Made by a program: the position numbers and the translations under genes. This document shows positions 2,122 through 42,500 of a stretch of 64,000 nucleotides of DNA, piece after piece. The stretch is from Liolophura sinensis. Taxonomy: Eukaryota > Mollusca > Polyplacophora > Chitonida > Chitonidae. The stretch covers positions 40,285,187 to 40,349,186 of the forward strand of contig NC_088301.1 of the NCBI RefSeq assembly GCF_032854445.1. Reading direction: 5' to 3'. Positions within the stretch are counted from its first letter, which is position 1; each line of letters begins with the position of its first letter. Below the pieces are notes generated by a model, which saw only the letters and a list, made by a program, of their open reading frames with translations, was not told the DNA's origin and did no database searches.

Positions 2122-2975
2122 CAGAGAGGCAACATGCTGCATGGTGTCGACTGAAATAAACTGCAACACAAATATATACATGTAGTAATAATCATAATGA
2201 TGGCAGAGCCATGAATTTTTTTCACTCCTTTTTAAAGATTTTAGAGCATCTAAATATGGGAAACGTAATATTTAAAGCTAGAAAATTAGCTACTTTTTGC
2301 ATTATTAATACACATTGCTCAATAAATTTCAAAATAATTCGCTGGCACAAAATGAACTATATATATAGGCCTCATGGTTAATGTATCAAATTTCCCCGTA
2401 TTGTTTTGTCTTTCGTATTTATGTACATGTGAATATTTTTCCTACACTGATCATACGGACATTCACTTTGATCATGTCTTTTGGATCGATATACCCGAAG
2501 CCCATCGTGAATTGTGCACCGCGTCTGTCAATATCTATCATCTCCTCGATTTTCTCCTGCAATTAACTTCAAGTCATACAAGAATATTAATATATTCTTA
2601 TACCCGATTTGATTTATTCACACCGCATGCTTCAATACCGAAATGGGATTAGTTGATTTAACATTGATGTGAAGAACGTGGTTTTGTGCTTGGGCAGATG
2701 CAAAGACCAGGTTTGTCCTTTTGATAGTTAATCCGCGAGATTCACGAATGCCTATTCATTGTGGAAAGCTGGTTCTTCAATGAATTGATTCAAGTTGAAA
2801 CGTGATAGCAACCTCAACTTTCAAATTCCCTGTGCACGTACAGTATAAAGAATCCCAGCATGTCGAATTAAGACAACAGCTCGTCACTATGCACAAATTG
2901 AAGAACTGTCATCCGAAGTTAATTTGCTCACTATACTATAATTACGGCCGGTTAACATATATCTGTGTTGTGCGT
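2122..2975. other. non-coding stretch
   Basis: AT-rich sequence with no recognisable exon or element. Short open frames on the plus strand near 2374-2652 have no recognisable domain. Confidence 0.55.
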
Positions 2976-3270
2976 TAGTCGCGAGATCTAGCTGGGATCA
3001 AACCCAGGTTGAGTCACACCCAAGGCTTTAAAAATGGTACTTGTTGTTGCCGCACTTGGCCCTAAGCAATGAGAGGTTGGAGCAAGGAAACAGGACTGGT
3101 TGCGCCCATGTCAGTATAATGTGAATGTGTGGAGTGTCATGTCTGGTGTCTTCGGCATGATATACTCCAGTGGCGGCAGCACTTTGGCCGCATGGACTTG
3201 CCTTGTCACATGAAGACACATTATAGCCTATGTACGGAAAAACCGATCTCGAATCATTCCTCGTCGCCAT
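2976..3270 (-). repeat. SINE-like repeat B, copy 2
   Basis: Read on the minus strand, this is the fuller version of the repeat seen at 1785-1960, with GCGGCCAAAGTGCTGCCGCC, CACATTATACTGACATGGGC, AACAAGTACCATTTTTAAAG and the B-box-like GGGTTTGATCCC in order. I recognise this arrangement as a repeat type common in molluscan sequence; that is recollection, not a database match. An 80-codon open frame inside it is not considered a gene. Confidence 0.65.
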
Positions 3271-4991: not shown

Positions 4992-5952
4992 TTATGTAGC
5001 TGTTTTACGGATGTATCTCCTATTTGACTCACTGGAGCACCTACCCATTTGCTTGATTTCTTCATCTGACCAAACATTTATCAAAGATCTTACTGTTGCT
5101 GTCCTAATTCTAAATGAACGAGACTCTGTTGCCCTACAATCCCACACCAAGAAGCGAACCACTGTATTTGGAACTGAGGAAGACTGGTTAATGGCTTACC
5201 TCTATAATGACAGTAAAGGGGACCGGGAATTTTTAGTCTTATGACGAGGAATGCTTTTAACAAGGTCACAGGACAACTGTTGTCTGCTACAGGCTTAACC
5301 AAAGTTGATACACCTTTCCCATATTGATCAGTTTTGGAGAAGGGTAGGTACATTTTAACACTGCCGTTTGCAGCCATGTGAGTATTCTGTATTGCTAAAG
5401 TCCTACTATTGTCGTCTTCAAGTGATACTTCGCCCACTTTTAAGAAAGCATGGAGAGCCAATGAAAATACGGATGCAAATAGAGTGGCTTCGTACTGAGA
5501 ACATACTTATGGAGAGGGCCGACACTAGTTGCGAAAGCATAGCATCAGTAAAAGGTTGCCTTTCATCTGGAGATTTGTTTGTATGGCGCGAACTCTCCAA
5601 CAATTTCTTTGATACAATCTCTGATGTTGCATCTTTATAGCCGTTGATACGACTGTGAAAACTTATACCTGCCATGTAGCACTTAGCTGTGGCATATTCA
5701 ACTCGATTTGATGCCATGTAATCTACGTATGAGGTGCCCAAGTGGCACTGGTCAGGTACATGGGAGTTGGGAAGCAGTTCTAAATTCATTAAACTCGTCC
5801 AAGGCTGTCCGGTAACTTTTACTTGTATTGGGTGCCACTGATGAATTGATGAGATGTTCTATTTCAGCTAAAATATCAGCTGGCGAAACATTTCTGGAGT
5901 TTCTGTTGGGTGTGCATCTGCACTCGGCGCTAAATTTCGACACCTGGCCCAT
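4992..5952 (-). pseudogene. degenerate tyrosine recombinase of DIRS/Ngaro retrotransposon
   Basis: Three overlapping minus-strand frames (about 5952-5752, 5789-5418 and 5461-4992) together spell a tyrosine recombinase broken by frameshifts. The N-terminal part has 'NTSKSYRTALDEFNEF', the core has 'MALHAFLKVGEVS' (the region of the first catalytic Arg), then 'CPVTLLKAFL' and 'PGPLYCHYRGKPLT'. The C-terminal part has 'RSFRIRTATVRSL', then 'SDEEIKQMGRCSSESNRRYIRK' ending near 4992. The catalytic Tyr (in RRYIRK) is present. The usual His of the HSFRIG motif reads Arg here, and the motif's Gly also reads Arg, which supports inactivity. In the family this enzyme integrates a circular DNA intermediate without a classical integrase. 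Confidence 0.85.
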
Positions 5953-6960
5953 TGAAAACGAGGCAGACTGTCGTTAATACCATTAAGACAATGTGACTTG
6001 TTGGAAACTGAATGTTGTGCTGCATGGTGAACAGTACCAATTTCCTGACAAGGAACATCACACGCTCAGAGCTGGATATGGTTTTGTTTAGTATTTGGCA
6101 CAAAGCTTGGTTATCTACCCACAGGATCAGTTTTTTTTTCTGTTTCAACAGGTCACCCTATGTATACAAGGCCAGCAGGATAGGTATAATCTCAAAGAAA
6201 GTACTGTCGGCTAAAAGATCTGTAACGTGCCGTGATTCAGGCTACTTGAAAAGTGGAGCAGTGGCCACCGAAATAAGCTCCGCACTCCAGACTGCTTTCC
6301 CTGGCACTATCAGTAAAATAATATCACTGAATCGTAGAATCGCCTATTGAACGGACGTGCAGATGGTATCTCTCTTGCACAGAATGCTAGCATGCCGCCA
6401 TGGACTGCATTTCCCTCAGTGTTACTTTGTTGCAGTTGTAGAAGTATTCAAGTTTAGATGTTGATGCTTCAGCTTTGTTTTGTGGGATTTGTACCTCCAT
6501 TCTCTTGGTATCAATAGGTAAACCTAGGTGGGTTAAACGTGTTGTCGGCCCTACGCTTTTATCTTCTGCAATGGGGGGCCCCGATCTCTTCGCATACAGT
6601 CAAAGGTCGACATTAACCTGGCACATTCATTGGTATTTTCTGATCCTATCGCTACGTAGTCGTCTAAATAATGGCGCGTTAATTCCAAGACTTGCGTTTA
6701 ACGGCCCACGCGATAAATGTAGCAAATTTTTCTAGAAAAGTACTGGAGATGGATGAGCCCATTGGCAGACACTTGTCAATATAATATTGATTTTCAGATT
6801 TAAAGCCAAGAAGGTCAAAATCTGCAGGATTTATAGGGAGAAGACAAAAAGCTGATTTAATATCCTTTATCCCCAACAGTGAATTTTGCCATGTATTGGC
6901 AACCAGCTCAACCACTTCATCAAATGATGTATATTGCACCAAGCACATGTGAGGATTCAA
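5930..6960 (-). pseudogene. degenerate reverse transcriptase / RNase H
   Basis: On the minus strand, RT fingers/palm appear as 'GIKDIKSAFCLLPINPADFD' with 'CLPMGSSISSTFLEKF' (6960-6690). The catalytic box is HYLDDYVAIG, with YLDD encoded at 6659-6670. It is followed by 'PPIAEDKSVGPTTRLTHLGL', a conserved segment of DIRS/Ngaro RTs. An RNase H remnant follows as 'ILWVDNQALCQILNK' (about 6130-6085) and an 'RFQWARCRNLAPSADAHP' tail that leads into the recombinase. At least one stop and several frame changes interrupt it. No methyltransferase segment is seen between RNase H and recombinase, which favours a Ngaro-like rather than DIRS1-like layout. Confidence 0.88.
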
Positions 6961-7205
6961 AAATCATTTACACTTTTACTTGGTGGGCGAGAAGCGAAAA
7001 CCACCTTCATATAGTAGGCACTATAGAAGAAATGTGGAGATTGGTGGGGATAGGAATGGCCTGGCAATGTGACTCAAATTTATCTCTGATGTGATTTTTT
7101 GTGAAAGCTCTGATGCATATGTGCTAGCTGAAGAAAGATTATCAGCTTGAACAAAATTTATAGGTGTTGATTAGCATAGCCCAGAACCTTTTTTGATCCC
7201 ATTAA

Positions 7206-29559: not shown

Positions 29560-32500
29560 TTACCAAGCCTCAACGTTGTAACGGCCTTCAATCTGCATGT
29601 CGGTGACCATCTTGTCAGCTTCCTCAGGTTTGTGTCCGCCAACTTTCACAAAGGCGTCAACGACGGCTTGCCTTACAGCCGGGGGCACGTTTCCTGCTGG
29701 CCCACACAGGTAGAAATAACCCTTCTTCTTCATCAAGTAGTCGTAGATAATTTCTGGATGTTCCTGGATACGATTTTGTACGTAGATCTTGTGAGCTTGG
29801 TCACGGGAGAAGGCGTTCGACAGCACGGTAAGCACACCTTTGCCATTCGAATGGTACTCTTCCAGTTCGTCGCCGTATGTGTAGTCCGTCCTCTTATGAC
29901 GAGCACCGAAGAACAGAGCCATTTCTCCGACGTCTTCTCCGCGAGTGCGGCACACTTCACGTTCTTCAATGAAGGCTCGGAATGGGGCAAGACCAGTTCC
30001 AAGTCCAACCATGACAAATGGTGGTTTGTGTGAGTCCGGAATGGTGATTCCTGCAGCGTTGATTTTACCAGAAATGAAATCTGGTGACTCACCAAGACCC
30101 AGGTTTTGCAAATAGTGGGTGCAAAGACCCCTGCGGTATTTTCCAGAAGGTGTTGTCCAGTCATCTTTTACAATACACAGATGGAGTTTATCGCCATGCA
30201 TTTCAGAAGCTGAAGCGATGGAGTACAGGCGAGGTTTAATTCTTGGTATGTGGTCCACCATGTAGTCCAGGGGCAGCTTTGCAGAGGGATATTTTCTTAA
30301 CAGATCGGCAAAAGTCGTCGTTTCACTTATCATTTCCTTGTACTTTTCAGTTCCTTCTTTGCTGATGATATATTCAATTTCTTTCTTCTCATTTTCGTCT
30401 GTAGCCGCAAGTGCAAGTGTTTCGTAGAATCGTCGGCTGGGCCTGCCGAAGACATCAAGTACCTCCTGGAAAAGCTGACTGGCTGTTGCAACCGCCGGTA
30501 GCGGGTCTTTGCGTCCAGTTGTGTCTTCAAGGGTAATAACATTATCTGGGCCAATGTTGCACTCAGCCAGAAAGTTTATCACCTCATCTATGTTGTTGTG
30601 AGGGTAGATTCCAAGGCACTCTCCGATTGCGTACTGCATTCCGGACTCCTTCAAATCAAACTCGTAGTGCCGAATGTCACGATCGTAGTCTGGTGGCGTC
30701 AGGACAACATTTTTGGTCATAGGGACGAGTTTGTAGCCTGATGGAACGATAGCGTCCTTCGGAGCCGAAACAGACCCAGTCGTATCAACCTCCACACGAT
30801 ATGTTGGTGGCATTAATTCTTGTGGGGGTGGAGGAGTGCCCAGCTCGTTCCACAGGTTGGGGCACCAGTCGGACCAAGCAGTTTCGTACTTCTCATCGTC
30901 TTTGTCGTCTCCCAACCCAATGTCAAGAATCCTTTGGGCCCCGAGTTCTTCCAGACGCTTGTCAAAGGCCTTTGCGGACTCATTGTAAAATACATATGAA
31001 GTGTCACCAAGGCCGAAGACAGCAAACTTAGTATTTTCCAGGAAGTCTGCAGGCAAATCGGGTTTGGAGAGCTGTTCCCAGAAGTTCTTGCAGTTGCCTG
31101 GGAATTCACCCTGCCCACATGTTGCTACGATACAGTAAACGTTGGCTTGTGATGGTAGTTCCTCAACGTCGAAGTCATCCATAGCAAGACACTTTGCCCT
31201 TATTCCCCGCCTTTTTAATTCCGTTGAAAACACATGGGCCAAGTTTTCTGCATTGCCTGTTTCAGAACCATAGAGAATAATGGATTTCTCAGTTGACACT
31301 TCTTCTCCCAGTAAATTTTTCAGATGTTCTAGAAGTTCATGTTCATCCATGGCCATCTTAAGTAGTTTCTTGTGACGATGGGATGATATATCGTGCAGTG
31401 ACGTATGAAGCAAGGCAGCTTCATCCTTGTTCTTTCGAACTAACTGCTGGAATCTGTTTTGCTGATGCAAAAACTCGTGCAAGTCTCCTTTGATTCTTTT
31501 TGAATCAAGTTGGAAAGGATTTTGTCCTAAATCTGCCTTCCGTGGGTCAAATCTGTACAGTGTCCAGTAGCCGCTTTCTACAGCTTCCTTTTGTTCGTGC
31601 ATCATGTTTTTCATCTCGATGCCCCAGTCAATGCACGGTGAGTAGGCAATAATAATTGATGTGCCATTGTAAGACTCCGCCTCCTTGAACGCTTGCACGG
31701 TTTGATTCATGTTGGCACCCAAAGCCACCGAAGCAACGTACACGTTTTCGTACAACATGGCCATCATTCCAAGGTCTTTCTTGACATGACGCTTCCCGGA
31801 GGACGCGAACTTCGTTACAGTCGATAGCTGTGTGGCCTTTGATACCTGACCTCCTGTGTTGGAGTACATTTCAGTGTCCAAAACCAAGATGTTAACATTT
31901 TCACCTTTCGAAATTACGTGGTCAAGGCCCCCGTATCCGATGTCATATGCCCAGCCATCTCCCCCAACAAGCCAATGAGACTGTGTGCGGAAAAGATCCC
32001 GCTGTTGGTGTAGTCTCTGTAAGATTGGGTCTTTGTCCTTCTCTTTTTCCAAGGCTTCTTCAATCATTGGGGCCAAGTTATCACAATGGGCAGAGCTATC
32101 CATGTTTTTAACCCACTTTCCAAAGAGACTGTGTAGCTCTTCACTGAGGGGAACATTTTCCATCGCCAATTCAACGTCCTTCTGCAACATTCTACGTCTC
32201 TGTTTGGTTGCAAGCATCATACCGAATCCGTACTCAGCTGTGTCTTCAAAAAGTGATCTGCCCCATGCTGGTCCCCTGCCATCTTTGGATGTTGTGAATG
32301 GCACAGCCGCTGCTGTTCCACCCCATACAGAAGAACATCCAGAGGAATTGGCAATCACCATCTTATCCCCAAACAGTTGTGTTGCTAACTTCATGTAAGG
32401 CGTCTCTCCACAACCAGCACAGGCTCCTGAAAATTCCATCAATGGCTTTTCAAACTGGCTGCCTTTCACAGTGAACTTGTCACCAATTTCTCCCTTTTCG

Positions 32501-35091
32501 TCCAGCTTAATAGCATAGTCCCAGTGTGGACGATATTTCTCTGCCACCTCGTTAAATGGGGCCATGTACAAAGCATCATCTGGGCAAGATTCAACACACA
32601 CTTCGCAACCTGTGCAGTCCATTGGTGAGATTTGGATAGTGTAATTAAAGCCAGACACTTCAGCACCACCTTTGGCTTTTCTTGCTTCAAACCCAGGTGG
32701 AGCAGATTTGGCTTCATTTTTGTCCAGTAAAAATGGTCTAACCACAGCATGAGGGCAAACAATGGCACAGTAGTTACACTGTGTGCAGGCATCTGGGATC
32801 CACACTGGGATATTTGGAGCAATTCCTCTTTTTTCATACTCTGTAGTTCCAATAGGCATGTAACCGCCAGGTTCAAAGGCGCTGACAGGCAATTTATCTC
32901 CTTCTAACGCCAACACTGGGTGCATGATCTTTTCAACAAATTCTGGCTCGTTTGATGCACTTTTCTTCGCAGCATTGGCATCACTTCTGTCCCAAGATGA
33001 CGGATAATCAATCTTTTGAATGCTTTTCCTTGCACTGTCGACTGCAGACTGGTTGCTCTCTACAATCTTTGGTCCCTTATGGCCATAGGACTTCTCAATG
33101 GAGCGTTTTAACAACTGCATTGCGTCTTCAACTGGCAAGACACCAGACAGCTCATAAAAAGCCGCCTGCATGATCATGTTAATGCGCTTTCCAAGGCCCA
33201 CTTTTGCAGCTAGTCCAATGGCATCAATATTGTAGAACTGAAGTTTCTTTTCAGCGATCTGTTGCTTGATGAGAGCCGGCAGTTTGGCTTGCATTTCCTC
33301 CATCGTAACCCAAGGTGAGTTTAGGACAAAGGTTCCTCCAGGCTTGAGTGGCTCCAGCAACTGATTGAATTTGTAGACATAGCTGGGGTGGGCACATGAT
33401 ACATAATCTGCATCTGAGTGGATTGTGTACTCACTCTTGATGTCTTCTGGTCCAAAACGTACATGTGAGATCGTGACACCATCAGCTTTATGAGAATCAT
33501 AAACAAAATGTCCTTGGGCTTTCAGGGGAGTGTTCAGGCCAATTGTTTTGATGGCTTCCTTAGCAGCTCCCACTGTGCCATCTGATCCCAAACCCCAGAA
33601 TATGCACTGCTTGGTACCCTCAGGGATGGTTTTAAGTGGAGCCCCATATGGGAGGGAGGTGTGGGTCACGTCGTCTTCAATTCCAATCACGTAACTTTCC
33701 TTAGGTTTTTCTGCATTCAAGTTTTCGAAGACTGCTTGTACCATTTCAGGAGTAAATTCTTTGGAGGCTAATCCATACTGGCCACCTGTTATTAGGGCTT
33801 GTCTTTTGGCATCACTGAAGGCAACGTTGACATCCAGAAACAGTGGCATCCCAGCAGCCCCATCTTCTCGTGTTCTATCCAAAACTGCGATCTTGGTGGC
33901 TGATTGTGGTATGGCCGCCAAAAGATGCTTGGAAGACCAGGGTCTGAACAAATGAACATTCACAACACCCACATTTTCTCCTTTGGCATTCAGGTAGTCA
34001 ACAGTTTCTTCGATGGTCTTTGCTCCAGATCCCATGATAACGGCCACTCGATCTGCTGTGGGTGAGCCATGGTAGTCAAACAGATTGTACTTTCTCCCTG
34101 TGATTGCATACACTTCTTCCAAGGTTTGTTCCACGATTGAAGGGCATTCATTGTAGTATTTGTTGGCTGCAACTGTGGACTGAAAAAAGATGTCTGGCCG
34201 TTGGCCAGTACCTCTTATCATTGGCTTGTTTGGATTCAAGGCAAAGTCTCTTAAGTGCTTCTGTGCTAGGTCGTCTGGAAAGATTTCAGCCATTGCCGAG
34301 TATGGTATTGGCTTAATCTTTGAAACCTCTGCTGATGTTCTGTAACCATCAAAGAAGTGCATAAATGGCAATCTTGCCTTCACTGAAGCAATGTGAGACA
34401 CCAGAGCAAGATCCATTACTTCTTGTACTGAACTTGAGCATAGCATGGCAAAGCCAGTTTGTCTAGTGGCCATGACATCAGAGTGATCATTAAAAATGGA
34501 GAGGGCATGCTTAGAGACAGTGCGAGCAGAGACATGAAACACTGTGGGAACAAGTTCCCCGGCAAGTAAGTACATATTTGGGATCATGAGAAGGAGCCCC
34601 TGAGATGCAGTGAAAGTGCTACTTAGAGCCCCTGCTGCAGCTGCACCATGAAGAGCACCCGCCGCTCCACCTTCTGACTGCATCATGTTAACATCTACGG
34701 TTGATCCAAAGATGTTCTTTGTCTCCAGACTTGCCCACTTGTCCATGTGGTCTCCCATTGATGTGGCAGGGCTAATGGGATAGATAAAAGAAATATCACT
34801 CAGAGCATAGGCAACATAAGCTGCTGCTTCATTGCCATCCATAGCAACATACTTTTCTGCAGATTCAGGGGCTGTCTTAGAGACTTCTTTCTCTTGTAAC
34901 TGTGGCATTGGGGCCACTGTTTGCATTGTCCTCTTTGGAGTATCTGATGTAGAAGACGCCATGGCTCTTGCTGCCTGGACAGTTGTTTGGCGCCATGCTC
35001 GGGCAGGTTGCTTTGGCAACACCTTGTACATGGACCTCCCCTGCCGCCACAGGGGAGCCTGGGCGGCTTTAGAGGCGACAGCTTTCCACAT
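29560..35091 (-). CDS. PNO: pyruvate:NADP+ oxidoreductase, mitochondrial (PFOR-diflavin reductase fusion)
   Basis: A single 1843-residue frame with no stop or intron. Family reaction: pyruvate + CoA + NADP+ to acetyl-CoA + CO2 + NADPH. Residues 1-45 are rich in Arg, Lys and Ala without Asp/Glu, a probable mitochondrial transit peptide. Residues ~81-740 form the PFOR pyruvate- and CoA-binding domains (YPISPAT at 104-110). EKRGIAPNIPVW (753-764) starts the EKR/ferredoxin region, with ligands Cys769, 772, 775, 779 and Cys826, 829, 832, 836. Proximal-cluster ligands are Cys891, 894, 919 and 1153; the thiamine-diphosphate signature runs from GDG (1044-1046) to NTGGQ (1078-1082). After a linker (~1200-1268), the FMN flavodoxin domain spans ~1270-1418 (YGSETGN 1274-1280). 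The FAD domain has RLYSIAS (1621-1627); the NADPH domain has GLGTGLAPFR (1696-1705) and CGPAGN (1796-1801), ending in Trp1843. All key residues are present, so it looks functional. Met1 is preferred because starting at Met44 would remove the transit peptide. Confidence 0.97.
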   Translation of the reverse strand: MWKAVASKAAQAPLWRQGRSMYKVLPKQPARAWRQTTVQAARAMASSTSDTPKRTMQTVAPMPQLQEKEVSKTAPESAEKYVAMDGNEAAAYVAYALSDISFIYPISPATSMGDHMDKWASLETKNIFGSTVDVNMMQSEGGAAGALHGAAAAGALSSTFTASQGLLLMIPNMYLLAGELVPTVFHVSARTVSKHALSIFNDHSDVMATRQTGFAMLCSSSVQEVMDLALVSHIASVKARLPFMHFFDGYRTSAEVSKIKPIPYSAMAEIFPDDLAQKHLRDFALNPNKPMIRGTGQRPDIFFQSTVAANKYYNECPSIVEQTLEEVYAITGRKYNLFDYHGSPTADRVAVIMGSGAKTIEETVDYLNAKGENVGVVNVHLFRPWSSKHLLAAIPQSATKIAVLDRTREDGAAGMPLFLDVNVAFSDAKRQALITGGQYGLASKEFTPEMVQAVFENLNAEKPKESYVIGIEDDVTHTSLPYGAPLKTIPEGTKQCIFWGLGSDGTVGAAKEAIKTIGLNTPLKAQGHFVYDSHKADGVTISHVRFGPEDIKSEYTIHSDADYVSCAHPSYVYKFNQLLEPLKPGGTFVLNSPWVTMEEMQAKLPALIKQQIAEKKLQFYNIDAIGLAAKVGLGKRINMIMQAAFYELSGVLPVEDAMQLLKRSIEKSYGHKGPKIVESNQSAVDSARKSIQKIDYPSSWDRSDANAAKKSASNEPEFVEKIMHPVLALEGDKLPVSAFEPGGYMPIGTTEYEKRGIAPNIPVWIPDACTQCNYCAIVCPHAVVRPFLLDKNEAKSAPPGFEARKAKGGAEVSGFNYTIQISPMDCTGCEVCVESCPDDALYMAPFNEVAEKYRPHWDYAIKLDEKGEIGDKFTVKGSQFEKPLMEFSGACAGCGETPYMKLATQLFGDKMVIANSSGCSSVWGGTAAAVPFTTSKDGRGPAWGRSLFEDTAEYGFGMMLATKQRRRMLQKDVELAMENVPLSEELHSLFGKWVKNMDSSAHCDNLAPMIEEALEKEKDKDPILQRLHQQRDLFRTQSHWLVGGDGWAYDIGYGGLDHVISKGENVNILVLDTEMYSNTGGQVSKATQLSTVTKFASSGKRHVKKDLGMMAMLYENVYVASVALGANMNQTVQAFKEAESYNGTSIIIAYSPCIDWGIEMKNMMHEQKEAVESGYWTLYRFDPRKADLGQNPFQLDSKRIKGDLHEFLHQQNRFQQLVRKNKDEAALLHTSLHDISSHRHKKLLKMAMDEHELLEHLKNLLGEEVSTEKSIILYGSETGNAENLAHVFSTELKRRGIRAKCLAMDDFDVEELPSQANVYCIVATCGQGEFPGNCKNFWEQLSKPDLPADFLENTKFAVFGLGDTSYVFYNESAKAFDKRLEELGAQRILDIGLGDDKDDEKYETAWSDWCPNLWNELGTPPPPQELMPPTYRVEVDTTGSVSAPKDAIVPSGYKLVPMTKNVVLTPPDYDRDIRHYEFDLKESGMQYAIGECLGIYPHNNIDEVINFLAECNIGPDNVITLEDTTGRKDPLPAVATASQLFQEVLDVFGRPSRRFYETLALAATDENEKKEIEYIISKEGTEKYKEMISETTTFADLLRKYPSAKLPLDYMVDHIPRIKPRLYSIASASEMHGDKLHLCIVKDDWTTPSGKYRRGLCTHYLQNLGLGESPDFISGKINAAGITIPDSHKPPFVMVGLGTGLAPFRAFIEEREVCRTRGEDVGEMALFFGARHKRTDYTYGDELEEYHSNGKGVLTVLSNAFSRDQAHKIYVQNRIQEHPEIIYDYLMKKKGYFYLCGPAGNVPPAVRQAVVDAFVKVGGHKPEEADKMVTDMQIEGRYNVEAW
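34960..35091 (-). other. predicted mitochondrial transit peptide of PNO
   Basis: The first 44 residues hold about ten Arg/Lys and no acidic residue, with many Ala, Gln and Ser, ending 'AARAMASSTSD'. This is typical of a matrix-targeting presequence. Homologous catalytic sequence starts only near residue 80. The cleavage site cannot be fixed by eye. Euglena PNO is likewise mitochondrial, whereas the Cryptosporidium enzyme is not thought to be matrix-targeted. Confidence 0.7.
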
Positions 35092-35107
35092 AGCTGAAAG
35101 TGATCTG
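35092..35107 (-). other. splice acceptor(s) just upstream of the PNO start codon
   Basis: On the minus strand a pyrimidine tract followed by CAG (TTTTTTCCAG, exon then starting at 35104) lies 13 bases before the ATG. A second acceptor-like CTTTCAG lies two bases before the ATG (exon starting at 35093). Either would place the whole coding sequence in one last exon with introns in the 5' untranslated region. The proximal one would leave the PNO frame open into the upstream exon at 37066-37137. Confidence 0.65.
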
Positions 35108-37065
35108 GAAAAAAGGTGGAAAAAAGGAAATAGTTTCCTTGTATTTATTCAAGGATGTATTCACAGACAAGAATGCTACAAATATCATGTGTCTTTTCAA
35201 ACTGTGAACACAATATAAGTTTATAATATTTATCATCTTCCATTTTCAAATAACATGTAAAATACATCTGTCAGTCAGCGAACTAAATCAAATATTTGAT
35301 TTTTTATGCTCAAGGAAATTACATAGTTATTCAAATACACTAAAATTTGTGGTGATAATTTGCCAGTTTTGAGAACTGGTCATCCATCTTAAAAATCCAG
35401 GATCAAATGAGCGAATGACTATGGTTTATAGCCACACTAAAAATTGATTCTGAAACGACATTTAAAAAAGAAAATCAAAATGATGAATTTCTTGCTATGA
35501 ACTTTCAGGTTTGGGCACATACATGAACAACACATTAGGGAATTCGCAACAGTAGTTTAAATTATAAACAATTAATACCTTCACCACATGTGATACTGGT
35601 GTTACAGGAAATTGTCCACAAGTCAACTTTGCCCAATGTACATGTACAACCCAGTCAGCACTCTCAGTTCCTCCTCTAAACTGGGCCTACAAATGAAACA
35701 CATTTTCCCTATGCTGAATGTCATAATGATATGCACGGCCAACGTTAAAAATATGTTTACTGGGGGTAGCCAAATTGACTGTGCCAAAAAGGGCTCTAAT
35801 GTTAAGTTATTACAGGATGTTTGATGGGATTCTGTAATAGAGTTTTTTCCCATTCTCTTTAATTAGCCAGGATAAAAACAAAAGGAAACAACTAAGCATG
35901 TTCCAAGCAAAATCCTCCCGCCTAAAAAAAAAACAAGCAAATTCCCTACGAACAAACCAACCCTATTTTTGGATAGAGCTGTTTTACCCCAATGAAAGGA
36001 TTGTTTAATGATGGCCTGTACAATGCATATTTTTCATTTACATCTCTACATGTGTATAGGCAGTGTTTTGCCAACATCTACAGTACTTCAAGTCTAAAAA
36101 CTTTACCTTCATTGATACTAGAAAATGTAGTTCAGCCTAGAAAATGTAATTCAATCTTTTCCCATATTTGCAAGGTGTCTATTCAAGCATATTCTGAAGG
36201 CGTTATTCTGTGTTGACTGATAAAATCATATTTTTTGTGAAACCCTGAAATTGGCAAACCCAACCAATGTAGTTGTGTCTCCTAAATTAAATTAAAAATT
36301 TGCACTAATTGCACTGAAAGTCGCTCTTTCATATGCGAAAAGGTTGAGGAATTAGGTAATTTCAATACGACAAACTATTAAGAAATATTTCTTTTCTGTT
36401 TGTGCACACAGTTCAACTTCAGTTATGCTCCATATACGCATATAAGCACTGTACATATAAGCACTGTACATATAAGCACTGTACATATAAGCACTGTGCA
36501 TAGAAGACAAGTGAGTATTCCATAAATACCATCCTTAACTCCTGATGTGCCCCACATGTACTAGATCGTTTATTTATATATTTCATTGGTGTCGATAATA
36601 ACATACTCAAGAGATTTTCACATACACAATGCTTGAAAGTTGAAAGAAAAGATTTTCACTCATTTCAGCATAACCTGAAATTTAAGTAGATTCTGAAATA
36701 ATAGTCATGAAAATTATCCTTTTTTGTCTGGGCACCATGTTTACCACATAACTGTAACATGTGCAGATTGCAGGTTCCAGCAAGGCAAAAGTAATTTCTG
36801 CAGAATCTGAATGCTAATTCTTCAAGATCCTTGACGTACAGCGACCTATATTCCCTACTTTAATGCCTTTGACATACAATAAAGACATGCAGTCTCCCAG
36901 TATTGTGGAGTATGTACAGCAGACATACTCCAGCATACTTTAATGCACATTAACTTAAAAATAAACAAAATAATATACCACACCATACAAATTCCCCTGC
37001 AGGCACTGTACTTTAAGGATCTTAAATATAATCCATACAAATACTTAAGATCCAACTAGACTCAC
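35108..37065 (-). other. predicted 5'-UTR intron of PNO
   Basis: The stretch begins (minus strand) with GTGAGT next to the exon at 37066-37137 and ends with TTTTTTCCAG before the PNO coding exon. It is AT-rich with no recognisable gene. It contains a small 15-bp minisatellite at 36441-36500. Confidence 0.5.
36441..36500. repeat. 15-bp minisatellite, four copies
   Basis: TATAAGCACTGTACA repeats four times without gaps, the last copy with one change. It lies in the predicted 5' intron and shares the TGTACA hexamer with the large array at 37281-39534. Confidence 0.93.
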
Positions 37066-37280: not shown

Positions 37281-39534
37281 ATTGCTTTGGCAGCCAGTAC
37301 ATGTCCCACAGTATTACTTTTGCAGCCAGTACATGTACATGTCCCACAGTATTGTTTTGGCATCCAGTACATGTACATGTCCAGCAGTATTGCTTTGGCA
37401 GCCAGTACATGTCCACTTCCAGCAGTATTCTTTTGCAGCCAGTACATGTCCCACAGTATAGTTTTGGCAGTCAGAACATGTACATCTCCCACAGTATTGC
37501 TTTGGCAGCCAGAACATGTACATGTCCCACAGTTGCTTTGGCAGCCAGAACATGTACATGTCCCACAGTATTGCTTTGTCAGCCAGTACATGTGCATGTC
37601 CAGCAGTATTGCTTTTGCAGCCAGTACATGTCCAATAGCATTCCTTTGGCAGCCACTACAAGTACATGTCCCACAGTATTGCTTTGGCAGCCAGTACATG
37701 TACATGTTCCACAGTATCGCTTTGGCAGCCAGGACATGTCCCACAATATTGTTTTGGCAGCCAGTACATGTACCTGTCCAGCAGTATTGCTTTGACAGTC
37801 AATACATGTCCCACAATATTGTTTTGGCAGCCAGTACAAGTACCTATCCAGCAGTATTGCTTTGACAGCCAATACATGTCCCACAGTATTGCTTTGGCAG
37901 CCAGGACATGTCCCACAATATTGTTTTGGCAGCCAGTACATGTACCTGTCCAGCAGTATTGCTTTGACAGTCAATACATGTCCCACAATATTGTTTTGGC
38001 AGCCAGTACAAGTACCTGTCCAGCAGTATTGCTTTGACAGCCAATACATGTCCCACAGTATTGCTTTGGCAGCCAGGACATGTCCCACAATATTGTTTTG
38101 GGAGCCAGTACTTGTACCTGTCCAGCAGTATTGCTTTGACAGCCAATACATGTCCCACAATATTGTTTTGGCAGCCAGTACATATACCTGTCCAGCAGTA
38201 TTGCTTTGACAGCCAATACATGTCCCACAATATTGCTTTGGCAGCCTGTACACGTCCCACAGTATTGTTTGGCAGCCAGTACATGTACATGTCTCATAAT
38301 ATTGTTTTGGCAGCCAGTACATGTCCCACAGTATTGTTTTGGCAGCCAGTGCATGTACATGTCCCACAGTATTGTTTTGGCATCCAGTACATGTACATGT
38401 CCAGCAGTATTGCTTTGGCAGCCAGTACATGTACATGTCCAGCAGTACTGTTTTGGCATCCAGTACATGTACATGTCCAGCAGTATTGTTTTGGCAGCCA
38501 GTTCATGTACATGTCTCAAAGTATTGTTTTGGCATCCAGTACATGTACATGTCCAGCAGTACTGCTTTGGCAGCCAGTACATGTACATGTTTCATAATAT
38601 TGTTTTGGCAGCCAGTACATGTACATGTCTCATAGCATTGTTTTGGCAGCCAGTACATGTACATGTCCCACAGTATTGTTTTGGCATCCAGTACATTTAC
38701 ATGTCCCACAGTAAAGTTTTGGCAGCTAATACATGTACATGTCCCACAGTATTATTTTGGCAGCTAGTGCGTCCCACAATACTGTTTTGGCAGCTAGTAC
38801 ATGTCGCACGGTATTGTTTTGGCAGCCTGTACATGTACATGTCTCATAATATTGTTTTGGCAGCCAGTGCATGTACATGTCCCACAGTATTGTTTTGGCA
38901 GCCAATACATGTACATGTCCAAGAATACTGTTTTGGCAGCCAGTACATGTACATGTCCAGCAGTATTGCTTTGGCAGCCAATAAATGTCCCAGAATATTG
39001 TTTTGGCAGCCATTACATGTACATGTCACACAGTATTGTTTTGGCAGCCAGTACAAATACATGTCCCACAGTATTGTTTTGGCAGCCAGTACAAATACAT
39101 GTCCCACAATATTGTTTTGGCAGCCTGTACATGTCTCATAATATTGTTTTGGCAGCCAGTGCATGTACATGTCCCACAGTATTGTTTTGGCAGCCAGTAC
39201 ATGTACATGTCCAAGAATACTGATTTGGCAGCCAGTACATGTACATGTCCAGCAGTATTGCTTTGGCAGCCAATGCATGTCCCAGAATATTGTTTTGGCA
39301 GCCATTACATGTACATGTCACACAGTATTGTTTTGGCAGCCAGTACATGTACATGTCCCACAGTATTGTTTTGGTAGCCAGTACCTGTACGTCCCATAGT
39401 ATTATTTTGGCAGCCAGTTTATGTACATGTCCCACAGTATTGTTTTGGCATCCAGTGCATGTACATGTCCCACAGTATTGTTTTGGCAGCCAGTGCATGT
39501 ACATGTCCCACAATATTATTTTGGCGGCCAGTAC
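37281..39534. repeat. large tandem array of 32/38-bp units with ACATGTACATGT palindromes
   Basis: About sixty head-to-tail units follow the pattern CAGCCAGTACATGTACATGT then CCCACAGTATTGTTTTGG. Two main length classes, 38 and 32 bp, differ by one TGTACA hexamer. Long forms carry the perfect palindrome ACATGTACATGT, short forms ACATGT. Common variants are CCAGCAG for CCCACAG, GCTTTGG for GTTTTGG and TCATAAT for CACAGTAT. The left part is rich in short units and the right part in long units. Since 32 and 38 are not multiples of three and the unit has few stops, many frames stay open on both strands (up to 311 codons); these are not genes. The array lies in the predicted 5' intron of PNO, about 150 bases upstream of the exon at 37066-37137. 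Confidence 0.95.
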
Positions 39535-42500
39535 ATTTAGCAAAATGTGCATGTTAAACATCCAAAACAGGACAAAAATGCTCACAATTTTGTTGGAAAC
39601 AAACATATTGACGTTTCCAAACTTGGAATTGATCACTAACTTGTACTTGTTAGGCCATGTACTAAACTTCAATTTAGTATGATTGACTGTTATAAAACAA
39701 ATCGAGATAACTGTCATAATTGAAAAGAGCATGTTTATGCTGAAGTCCATAACTGAAACAAATATGGCCATAATTTTGTCGAAAACAAAGACAATGAATG
39801 TCGAACTTGACCGATAATTTGCTATGAAGTTTCCAACTGGAGACACAACTGTCGCAACTGGGGACTGATCTCACAAACATACTTTCAGAGATGCAAACTT
39901 AAAGTTTTGTGCTTGATGAGAAGTCAAGGTTTGTGTGTCTGATTATGGACTAACTTAAATATCTATGCACATGCTTTTATTCAAAGTATGTGACATAGGT
40001 TAAGTACCAGCTCACTATGAAGTAGACAGTACTTTCACAGCTCCCACTGTAGACATTTTTACCCCGTGATATTTGGTTTTGCATTCAAATTTTCCCAACT
40101 GTCAGCCCACAGGCCTATCAACAAACATTGGTTGATTATGCCCTGAGTATAAAAATGGCTATACTTTTGCTCAAAATATTTGAAATGACTCACAACTCAA
40201 CCATGATTTGTACATGTAACTAGTTGTGCTGAAGCCATGTACCAAGTTTTACTTTAATATGATGAAGTCAATACACCATGAAAGTTCAGAAAGATGACTG
40301 CCAGAAAAACATGAAAGTCTACACGCATATAGTCCCTCCACCTACATGTAGTTATGGCACTAATAAGTGCCACTATTTTTTGAAAAATAAACATGCAGTT
40401 GATTAAATGTTTTTTTTCCATCCCAAACATATTATTTAATGATGGAATAGTTGTTTAAATTAGTTAGTATATTTCACAAGAATTTCTTCCATTATTCTTT
40501 AATAAAAAAATAAAAGCTAGGTTTCATATTACCAGCAGACAACATACCAGCGAGGTTTATAAAGCCAGCTACATAACTAGATTTAATCCTTTTGAGCCCT
40601 CAGTGCCAGAAGAAACAAAAAACAGTTGAACTGCAGAACTAAGAAAAACATCACTCAAAGAAAAGTAGTATCAATTCATGCAACATGAAGTGCCATTAAT
40701 TGCAAGACAAATCTCATAAATTTTCGTACAAATGCAGGAGTGTTTGAAGTGAAGTAAAAATCTATCCTGAAGGCATGTTAAATGCTCATCTGAGGAAAAA
40801 GTATTACAGTGATCCCATTTTTTTTAAAAATTTGACATGATTTGTTCCAAAGACAAATGTTGTCCCTTGACAAATTTAATAATAAACCAGAGCGTTTTGA
40901 GTTTGAGCTACACGTACCTTACCACTGTATTGCATTTCCTATGCTACTGTATACCTTTGTAAGTAACATTATGTACACAATGATATATGTAATGTCTTCA
41001 ATCCGAGTACCATACACATTACTGGTAGATCAAAGTTCACCATATTCTGTTTGTCATTTCGTCATCACTACAACAGGCTGAGATGTGGGCAAGCTCTGGG
41101 ACATTGTTACACTGCGTTCACACAACGGCCTGTAATAATACTCTAGAATCATAGAAATGTGATGTGCAGGCATATGTATTTTAATCATTACATACCAAAC
41201 CAATCTTCTTACGGGGAAAATTTCAATTAGAAATACGTTATTTTAACAATACACTGTAAATGCCAAAGAAAAAGGAAAGACCCACAAAGATGTGAAATGG
41301 GTTCTCTGTCATTCAGTCAGCAATGCACTAGCCTGCTAATACCCTTAAAAAGTCCATTATGTGCATTATATGTGCGAAACAATATTATAAAGGATAAAGT
41401 GCAATTAAAAATTTTACTTAGAAAAGGAAGTATATGAAGATTTTCAAAATTATTTCGTAAGTGAAAAATAGTTTTGATCCTTACTTACTTTGGTTTATAT
41501 TGGTGTTAGAAGGTATGTTCAAAAACAGGTGAAAAAAGGAGGCATTTCAGAGGAGAGAAATCCCCCCTCCCCGCCACACCCAAAAGTGTGCAAAATGTCA
41601 GTCATCTGACAGTAACAAAACCAGAAACCTACAGGGAGTAAATCCTGTCTGATGTCAGATGACTGAAGGGGACACACTCATGAATGCAAAACAGTAGCTT
41701 CAGCTCAATACATTCATCTTAACCTTAAATGCACAAAAAAAAGACATGAATTTTGTAGTTTATGATAATTTCCACACAGGGCATCAATGATGGAACACCC
41801 TTGTGTTATTGTGCTTTACATGTATGCAAAACTTATAATGTAACATGGATTAGGCTGAGGTCTACACGTACTGCCTCAAATCTAGCAAACAGTATAATCG
41901 TATACCTGGTTATGTTGCGTAATTGCCTGCAGCAATACATGTCAGTCACAGCAAGCAACAGTCAGGGCAGAAAAAAACAAATGCTAGAACTTACACTCCC
42001 TGAAAAGATATGTCTTGTTCTTTTGTCCTCCAGCCTGCATGAGCTGCGATCGCCATGTTCGTCTGCTTTCAAGTACACATTACATACTTCTAAATGTGCA
42101 TGTGAGCAAATAATATCAACATGTCTGTATTCCTAAGCTGTAAGTAGGTTACTTAAACACAGATGTAAGACGGGTCTGTCATAAAACCATCTATGCATGC
42201 TGAGAGGCTTGGATCAAAATACATCTGTCGACCTGTCATTGGGTGTGCCAGTTTAACATTCAGCAGATTAGTTGATAAAAGGCAGTGATTAAATGAAATT
42301 CATCTTAATACTCAACATGCCTTAAATATGAATCTTACTCCACAGTCTTCTAGCAAGATGAACATCATCCATCCTTTGCAATCTGTATCTACTTTATTAC
42401 CCTTTTATCTTGGAATTACCAAGAATTAACAAATTAGTGACTTTATTGATACCTTGGCAGTGGATATCAAAATCACTTCATATGTACTCCAATTCTTTTA

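Follow-up and report, generated by a model that had tools for sequence, protein, structure and literature searches.

An intact gene for a putative mitochondrial pyruvate:NADP+ oxidoreductase in the genome of the chiton Liolophura sinensis

Results

A single long frame combines PFOR with a diflavin reductase

We analysed a 64-kb stretch of the Liolophura sinensis genome, hereafter referred to as the window. Positions 29560-35091 on the minus strand are occupied by a single open reading frame in the ORF list, starting with ATG and comprising 1843 codons plus a stop codon, which the ORF analysis, Pfam, TIGR02176 and homology to solved structures mark as the coding sequence of a pyruvate:NADP+ oxidoreductase (PNO). 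The surrounding stop-to-stop frame extends to position 35148, and at the local base composition the chance of a run of 1843 codons without a stop is about 10^-44.

The frame matched 17 Pfam families. On the PFOR side, the families over their cut-offs were POR_N (residues 93-322), PFOR_II (346-432), POR (502-688), EKR (708-758), a 4Fe-4S dicluster domain (765-840) and TPP_enzyme_C (1039-1147), and on the reductase side they were Flavodoxin_1 (1272-1409), FAD_binding_1 (1456-1660) and NAD_binding_1 (1694-1799); the overlapping Fer4_21 and Fer4_16 matches fell below theirs. The PFOR equivalog model TIGR02176 gave a score of 1638.6 bits against a cut-off of 911.35, and a search of PHROGs yielded a weak flavodoxin match only.

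The PFOR half, delimited by Pfam, TIGR02176 and alignment to solved chains, spans residues 79-1247 (31351-34857, minus strand). When solved structures were searched by sequence, it aligned over this whole range with three distinct PFOR chains, which we take to be from Moorella and Desulfovibrio-type organisms, and the homology begins at around residue 79-83. The second half, residues 1268-1843 (29563-31290, minus strand), contains the FMN, FAD and NADP(H) domains of a cytochrome-P450-reductase-type enzyme according to Pfam and alignment, and residues 1269-1843 aligned with cytochrome P450 reductase in the same structure search. A complete single-chain PFOR module and a diflavin reductase of this type are thereby present in the same frame. 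Judged from its sequence, the locus encodes a fusion of PFOR with a diflavin reductase of the cytochrome-P450-reductase type, that is, a PNO. The original prediction had called this fusion full and intact, and the single frame of 1843 amino acids, the order of the Pfam domains and the TIGR02176 score all bear this out.

Elsewhere in the window, Rfam gave nothing at the gathering threshold and 10 chosen neighbouring frames had no Pfam match over the cut-off. A minisatellite array at 37297-39536 (period 38, about 62 copies, 79% matches) stays open for long distances on either strand and thereby produces long ORFs that are not genes. Broken frames at 5093-6963 on the minus strand look by eye like what is left of a retroelement, including parts similar to a reverse transcriptase and a recombinase; the RVT_1 match there (E = 0.024) is below the Pfam cut-off.

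Cofactor sites and N-terminal extension

Pfam and a check of individual residues placed a first ferredoxin-type 4Fe-4S motif, CxxCxxCxxxC, at residues 769-779 (32755-32787, minus strand; cysteines 769, 772, 775 and 779) and a second at residues 826-836 (32584-32616, minus strand; cysteines 826, 829, 832 and 836). Together with cysteines 891, 894, 919 and 1153, these make up the twelve cysteines expected for the three 4Fe-4S clusters of a PNO, all of them at exactly the positions named beforehand, and the proximal-cluster cysteines align with those of solved PFORs. The stretch examined for these residues contains one extra cysteine, at position 1003.

A thiamine diphosphate (ThDP) motif, GDGWAYDIGYGGLDHV, was located by alignment at residues 1044-1059 (31915-31962, minus strand) and is followed by YSNTGGQ at 1076-1082. 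Counterparts of the ThDP site are the Glu of QSEGG (138-142), the Arg of SARTV (188-192) and the Asn of YSNTGGQ, which we take to be the residues that contact ThDP and pyruvate in PFORs. The Thr of YPITP in the solved PFORs is represented by Ser107, a replacement that retains the hydroxyl. Alignment of the other half to cytochrome P450 reductase showed ATCGQG in place of ATYGEG, the Tyr replaced by Cys being presumably an FMN-site residue, while RxYS, S-R-x4-K-x-Y (here AFSRDQAHKIY, 29782-29814, minus strand) and the C-terminal Trp are kept. We assume that RxYS belongs to the FAD site and that S-R-x4-K-x-Y binds the 2'-phosphate of NADP; as far as the alignment tells, the residues are of the NADP(H) rather than the NAD(H) type. 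The ThDP motif and the FMN, FAD and NADPH sites that had been predicted thus all have counterparts in the alignments; the two substitutions described above are points against the PNO reading.

Residues 1-78 (34858-35091, minus strand) form an Arg/Lys-rich extension that by its composition is a candidate mitochondrial presequence. The original prediction regarded the N-terminus as suited to mitochondrial import, which this basic extension makes plausible; that import takes place is something we infer. Upstream of the frame, a pyrimidine-rich tract ending in CAG (35105-35130, minus strand) resembles a 3' splice site, its AG ending 13 nt before the ATG, and suggests an upstream intron, either in the 5'UTR or preceding a further N-terminal exon.

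The enzyme might instead be cytosolic, if the extension is not a presequence or if translation begins in an exon further upstream. The splice-acceptor-like tract leaves room for such a coding exon, and one of the three C. porcatum PNOs is described as lacking a targeting signal (PMC6993867). Since about 78 residues precede the conserved core and the first 50 residues include 9 basic amino acids and 1 acidic one, we find a cytosolic location unlikely and retain the mitochondrial reading.

The gene has the features of resident chiton DNA

The gene is located around 40.3 Mb along a pseudomolecule of 60 Mb, and the 64-kb window contains no N. About 1.1 kb upstream of the gene, at 36150-36356, lies a dispersed repeat roughly 210 bases long that a genome search also placed on numerous other host contigs; with the best 40 of 4179 candidates scored, there were at least 42 matches (one being the window itself) on at least 12 contigs. 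The 3' flank contained no dispersed repeat in the genome search, giving one weak second match only, and is therefore neutral in this respect.

To compare base composition and codon usage we used a reference of 1262 codons from 13 host exon stretches. The GC content was 0.470 for the PNO coding region versus 0.471 for the host exons, with flanks at 0.34-0.36, and the GC content at third codon positions was 0.466 versus 0.499. The observed-to-expected CpG ratios were 0.53 and 0.52, respectively. Relative synonymous codon usage in the gene correlated at 0.70 with the host exons, compared to 0.40 with a clostridial PFOR, whereas the split-half mean among the host exons themselves was 0.59 (sd 0.08). 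With a gap-free window, a host repeat nearby, codon usage and CpG content in line with the host and a tract resembling a splice acceptor, the gene therefore looks like the chiton's own, and the placement of a PNO in an animal genome, as originally claimed, holds for this chromosome-scale scaffold.

The coding region has no introns, whereas the other 11 of the 12 FAD_binding_1 matches in the host are in frames of 49-140 amino acids, as in split genes. This would also fit, weakly, a retrocopy or an acquired gene. However, long single frames occur in other host genes as well, such as two of the UbiA family (413 and 339 amino acids) and an opine dehydrogenase (421 amino acids), so that little can be concluded from the absence of introns. 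We searched the host assembly of 609,464,459 bases in 632 contigs and found, among the best candidates scored, at least one POR-domain match, the gene itself being the single one recovered, and no PFOR paralogues.

The contrast with the exon-sized frames of the other FAD_binding_1 matches is what speaks for a lateral transfer, in which the chiton lineage would have taken the gene from a protist rather than inheriting it from animal ancestors. The presence of PNO in annelids and other non-chordate bilaterians, reported in PMC12403961, favours an older animal origin, the host-adapted codon usage argues against a very recent transfer and the long single frames of other host genes weaken the argument from introns; we therefore give transfer a small, though real, share of the probability. 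Still less credence is due to a gene that is intact but unused or repurposed, either as an unexpressed retrocopy or as a reductase with another electron donor: such a fate would suit an intronless coding region, but 1843 codons are free of stops, all twelve cysteines are kept and no second copy that could have served as the source of a retrocopy was found beside the one POR match among the best candidates scored. Contamination by a protist, for example an apicomplexan or euglenozoan, or a chimeric scaffold, the case named beforehand as fatal to the claim, is suggested by PNO papers dealing mostly with protists (PMC8611851, PMC6993867, PMC6938325) and by the intronless frame, but can practically be set aside given the absence of N in the window, the host repeat 1.1 kb away in the 5' flank, codon usage, GC3 and CpG values resembling those of the host, the position well inside the pseudomolecule and the reports of PNO in other animals (PMC12403961). 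We thus consider it very likely that this nuclear gene is native to the chiton and encodes a mitochondrial PNO.

Pyruvate metabolism and anaerobic functions in the host genome

Among 13 E1_dh matches in the host genome, exons of the PDH E1-alpha type were recognised by eye at a locus on contig C1, with the PDH-type stretch YRYHGHSMSDPG. The original prediction set the PNO against the PDH that animals normally use; a full PNO is indeed present, but it is no replacement for an absent PDH, because these E1-alpha-type exons are there.

Eight of nine matches to the alternative oxidase (AOX) family were found in two adjacent clusters of opposite orientation at 77838041-77846142 on C1, which may represent a duplicated alternative oxidase; for Alvinella, PMC12403961 reports two AOX genes in tandem. 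The opine-dehydrogenase and AcetylCoA_hydro families had one match each. Pyruvate formate-lyase (PFL) gave no match in the host genome search, a result that does not by itself prove its absence. Given these family-level matches, a route from pyruvate via acetyl-CoA to acetate appears possible in the chiton. Three Fe_hyd_lg_C matches form a tight group on C1 and resemble, on inspection by eye, what we take to be animal CIAO3/NARFL; a hydrogenase partner or hydrogen-producing route is for that reason not supported.

Animals that make rhodoquinone are described as having a COQ2 gene with two mutually exclusive exons, the e-type exon carrying Leu and Ser at two diagnostic places (PMC7434440), the second of which is less clear according to PMC12403961. 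The chiton COQ2 gene, on contig C7 at about 53.968-53.969 Mb, contains an a-type exon of 134 bases (local positions 2944-3077). Further upstream, e-type sequence that includes LTL and YDSIYSHQ is present (local positions 2464-2595). This stretch spans 132 bases from one splice-like end to the other, and no single frame through it is open, indicating either a decayed exon or assembly errors in single-base runs. Because the e-type exon cannot be read in a single frame, a complete rhodoquinone-based anaerobic chain is in doubt for this assembly.

Two further observations concern the assembly at large. Neighbouring UbiA-family frames of 339 and 413 amino acids at 26630201-26635668 on contig C9 are, by eye, possibly a tandem UBIAD1-like pair. 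COX1 matched seven times at intervals of about 15.5 kb on contig C99 and once on C632, the tandem chain of mitochondrial DNA being probably an assembly artefact. Using the invertebrate code, frames for ND3, ND2, COX1, COX2 and part of ATP6 were identified by eye in this order on the mitochondrial contig; the order ND3-ND2-COX1-COX2-ATP6 is usual for several mollusc groups.

Discussion

Proposed function

The most likely role of the enzyme in this shore-living chiton would be mitochondrial pyruvate oxidation alongside PDH, chiefly under low oxygen. ThDP in the PFOR half would decarboxylate pyruvate and the acetyl group would pass to CoA, while the electrons would travel through the three 4Fe-4S clusters to FMN, FAD and finally NADP+, so that the products would be acetyl-CoA, CO2 and NADPH. 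The acetyl-CoA could supply acetate:succinate CoA-transferase and succinyl-CoA synthetase, yielding ATP, and reductive reactions could draw on the NADPH. We infer the import, expression, direction and low-oxygen role of the chiton enzyme; operation in the reductive direction, which had also been proposed, finds no support in the present analysis.

Evidence from protists on the response to oxygen points both ways. In PMC6938325, the Euglena PNO protein is given as 1.68-fold higher in mitochondria under hypoxia, and a study cited there found that suppression of PNO markedly inhibits wax-ester production. The same source mentions an earlier study in which the transcript fell 0.60-fold in hypoxia, though the protein rose, and the Diplonema PNO is described as unresponsive to oxygen (PMC8611851); both the transcript decrease and the lack of response count against a low-oxygen role of the chiton enzyme.

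We tentatively suggest, while granting that the opposite is somewhat the better bet, that facultatively anaerobic molluscs possess a second, NADPH-yielding pyruvate oxidation beside PDH in ordinary aerobic mitochondria, that it dates back to an early bilaterian or even earlier ancestor and was lost in chordates and others, and that it accounts for some of the acetate and NADPH produced when the animals are exposed to air. Accounts of anaerobic metabolism in molluscs usually name PDH as the enzyme that oxidises pyruvate in mitochondria. The chiton PNO, intact in a genome assembled to chromosome level, provides a concrete target for asking whether animals employ an oxygen-sensitive PFOR-type enzyme in aerobic mitochondria, and also a handle on the age of PNO in animals. 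It may surprise a general biochemist, but less so readers of the annelid report. Since animal PNO is already in print (PMC12403961), the weight of the finding rests on the mollusc case and its testability.

Comparison with known systems

PNO is most familiar from protists able to withstand low oxygen. The original prediction named Euglena and Cryptosporidium, but the range is wider. Among animals, the 2025 Alvinella genome paper (PMC12403961) lists the annelid Alvinella pompejana itself, siboglinids, further annelids and "some non-chordate bilaterian taxa" as having the enzyme. A PNO is also described for C. porcatum, an anaerobic ciliate, in PMC6993867, which names Vitrella as well, and for Diplonema in PMC8611851. 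The surprise initially expressed at an animal PNO was overstated, because annelids and some other non-chordate bilaterians had been reported to have it. The literature searched contained no PNO from a mollusc or chiton, a weak negative since most subscription papers lie outside that search.

The Euglena gracilis enzyme likewise joins PFOR to an NADPH-cytochrome P450 reductase module (PMC6993867) and resides in mitochondria that also have PDH (PMC8611851 and PMC6938325), the location being predicted in the chiton. It differs in feeding wax-ester synthesis (PMC6938325), whereas the host here is an animal, and the two are likened by description. The annelid enzyme, as presented in PMC12403961, bears the same name and comes from a marine lophotrochozoan; this likeness is one of enzyme name rather than of sequence, gene structure or residues. 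Alvinella has standard OXPHOS, alternative oxidase and opine dehydrogenases (PMC12403961), and the chiton has family matches for AOX and opine dehydrogenase.

Bacterial single-chain PFOR (NifJ) shares with the chiton protein all PFOR domains, the twelve cysteines and the ThDP site. Pattern scans of phages, plasmids, genome contigs and viral contigs find close relatives only, and within this scope the identity was 47% for a clostridial contig and 48-51% in the phage and plasmid matches listed. In contrast to the chiton frame, no fused reductase was seen in the matched phage and plasmid records: none of 27 phage and none of 181 plasmid records matched as much as 80% of the query within a single region, and the best 5 of the phage and 8 of the plasmid matches cover the PFOR part only. 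The genome-contig scan returned the one clostridial contig, source of the PFOR used above for codon usage, which matches query residues 1-814 of 1168 and ends there, and the viral-contig pattern scan returned no relatives.

NADPH-cytochrome P450 reductase usually has an N-terminal membrane anchor. It shares its FMN, FAD and NADPH domains with the whole C-terminal half of the chiton protein, which ends in Trp where the best solved reductase chain has one residue more, and differs in that the chiton version is fused to PFOR.
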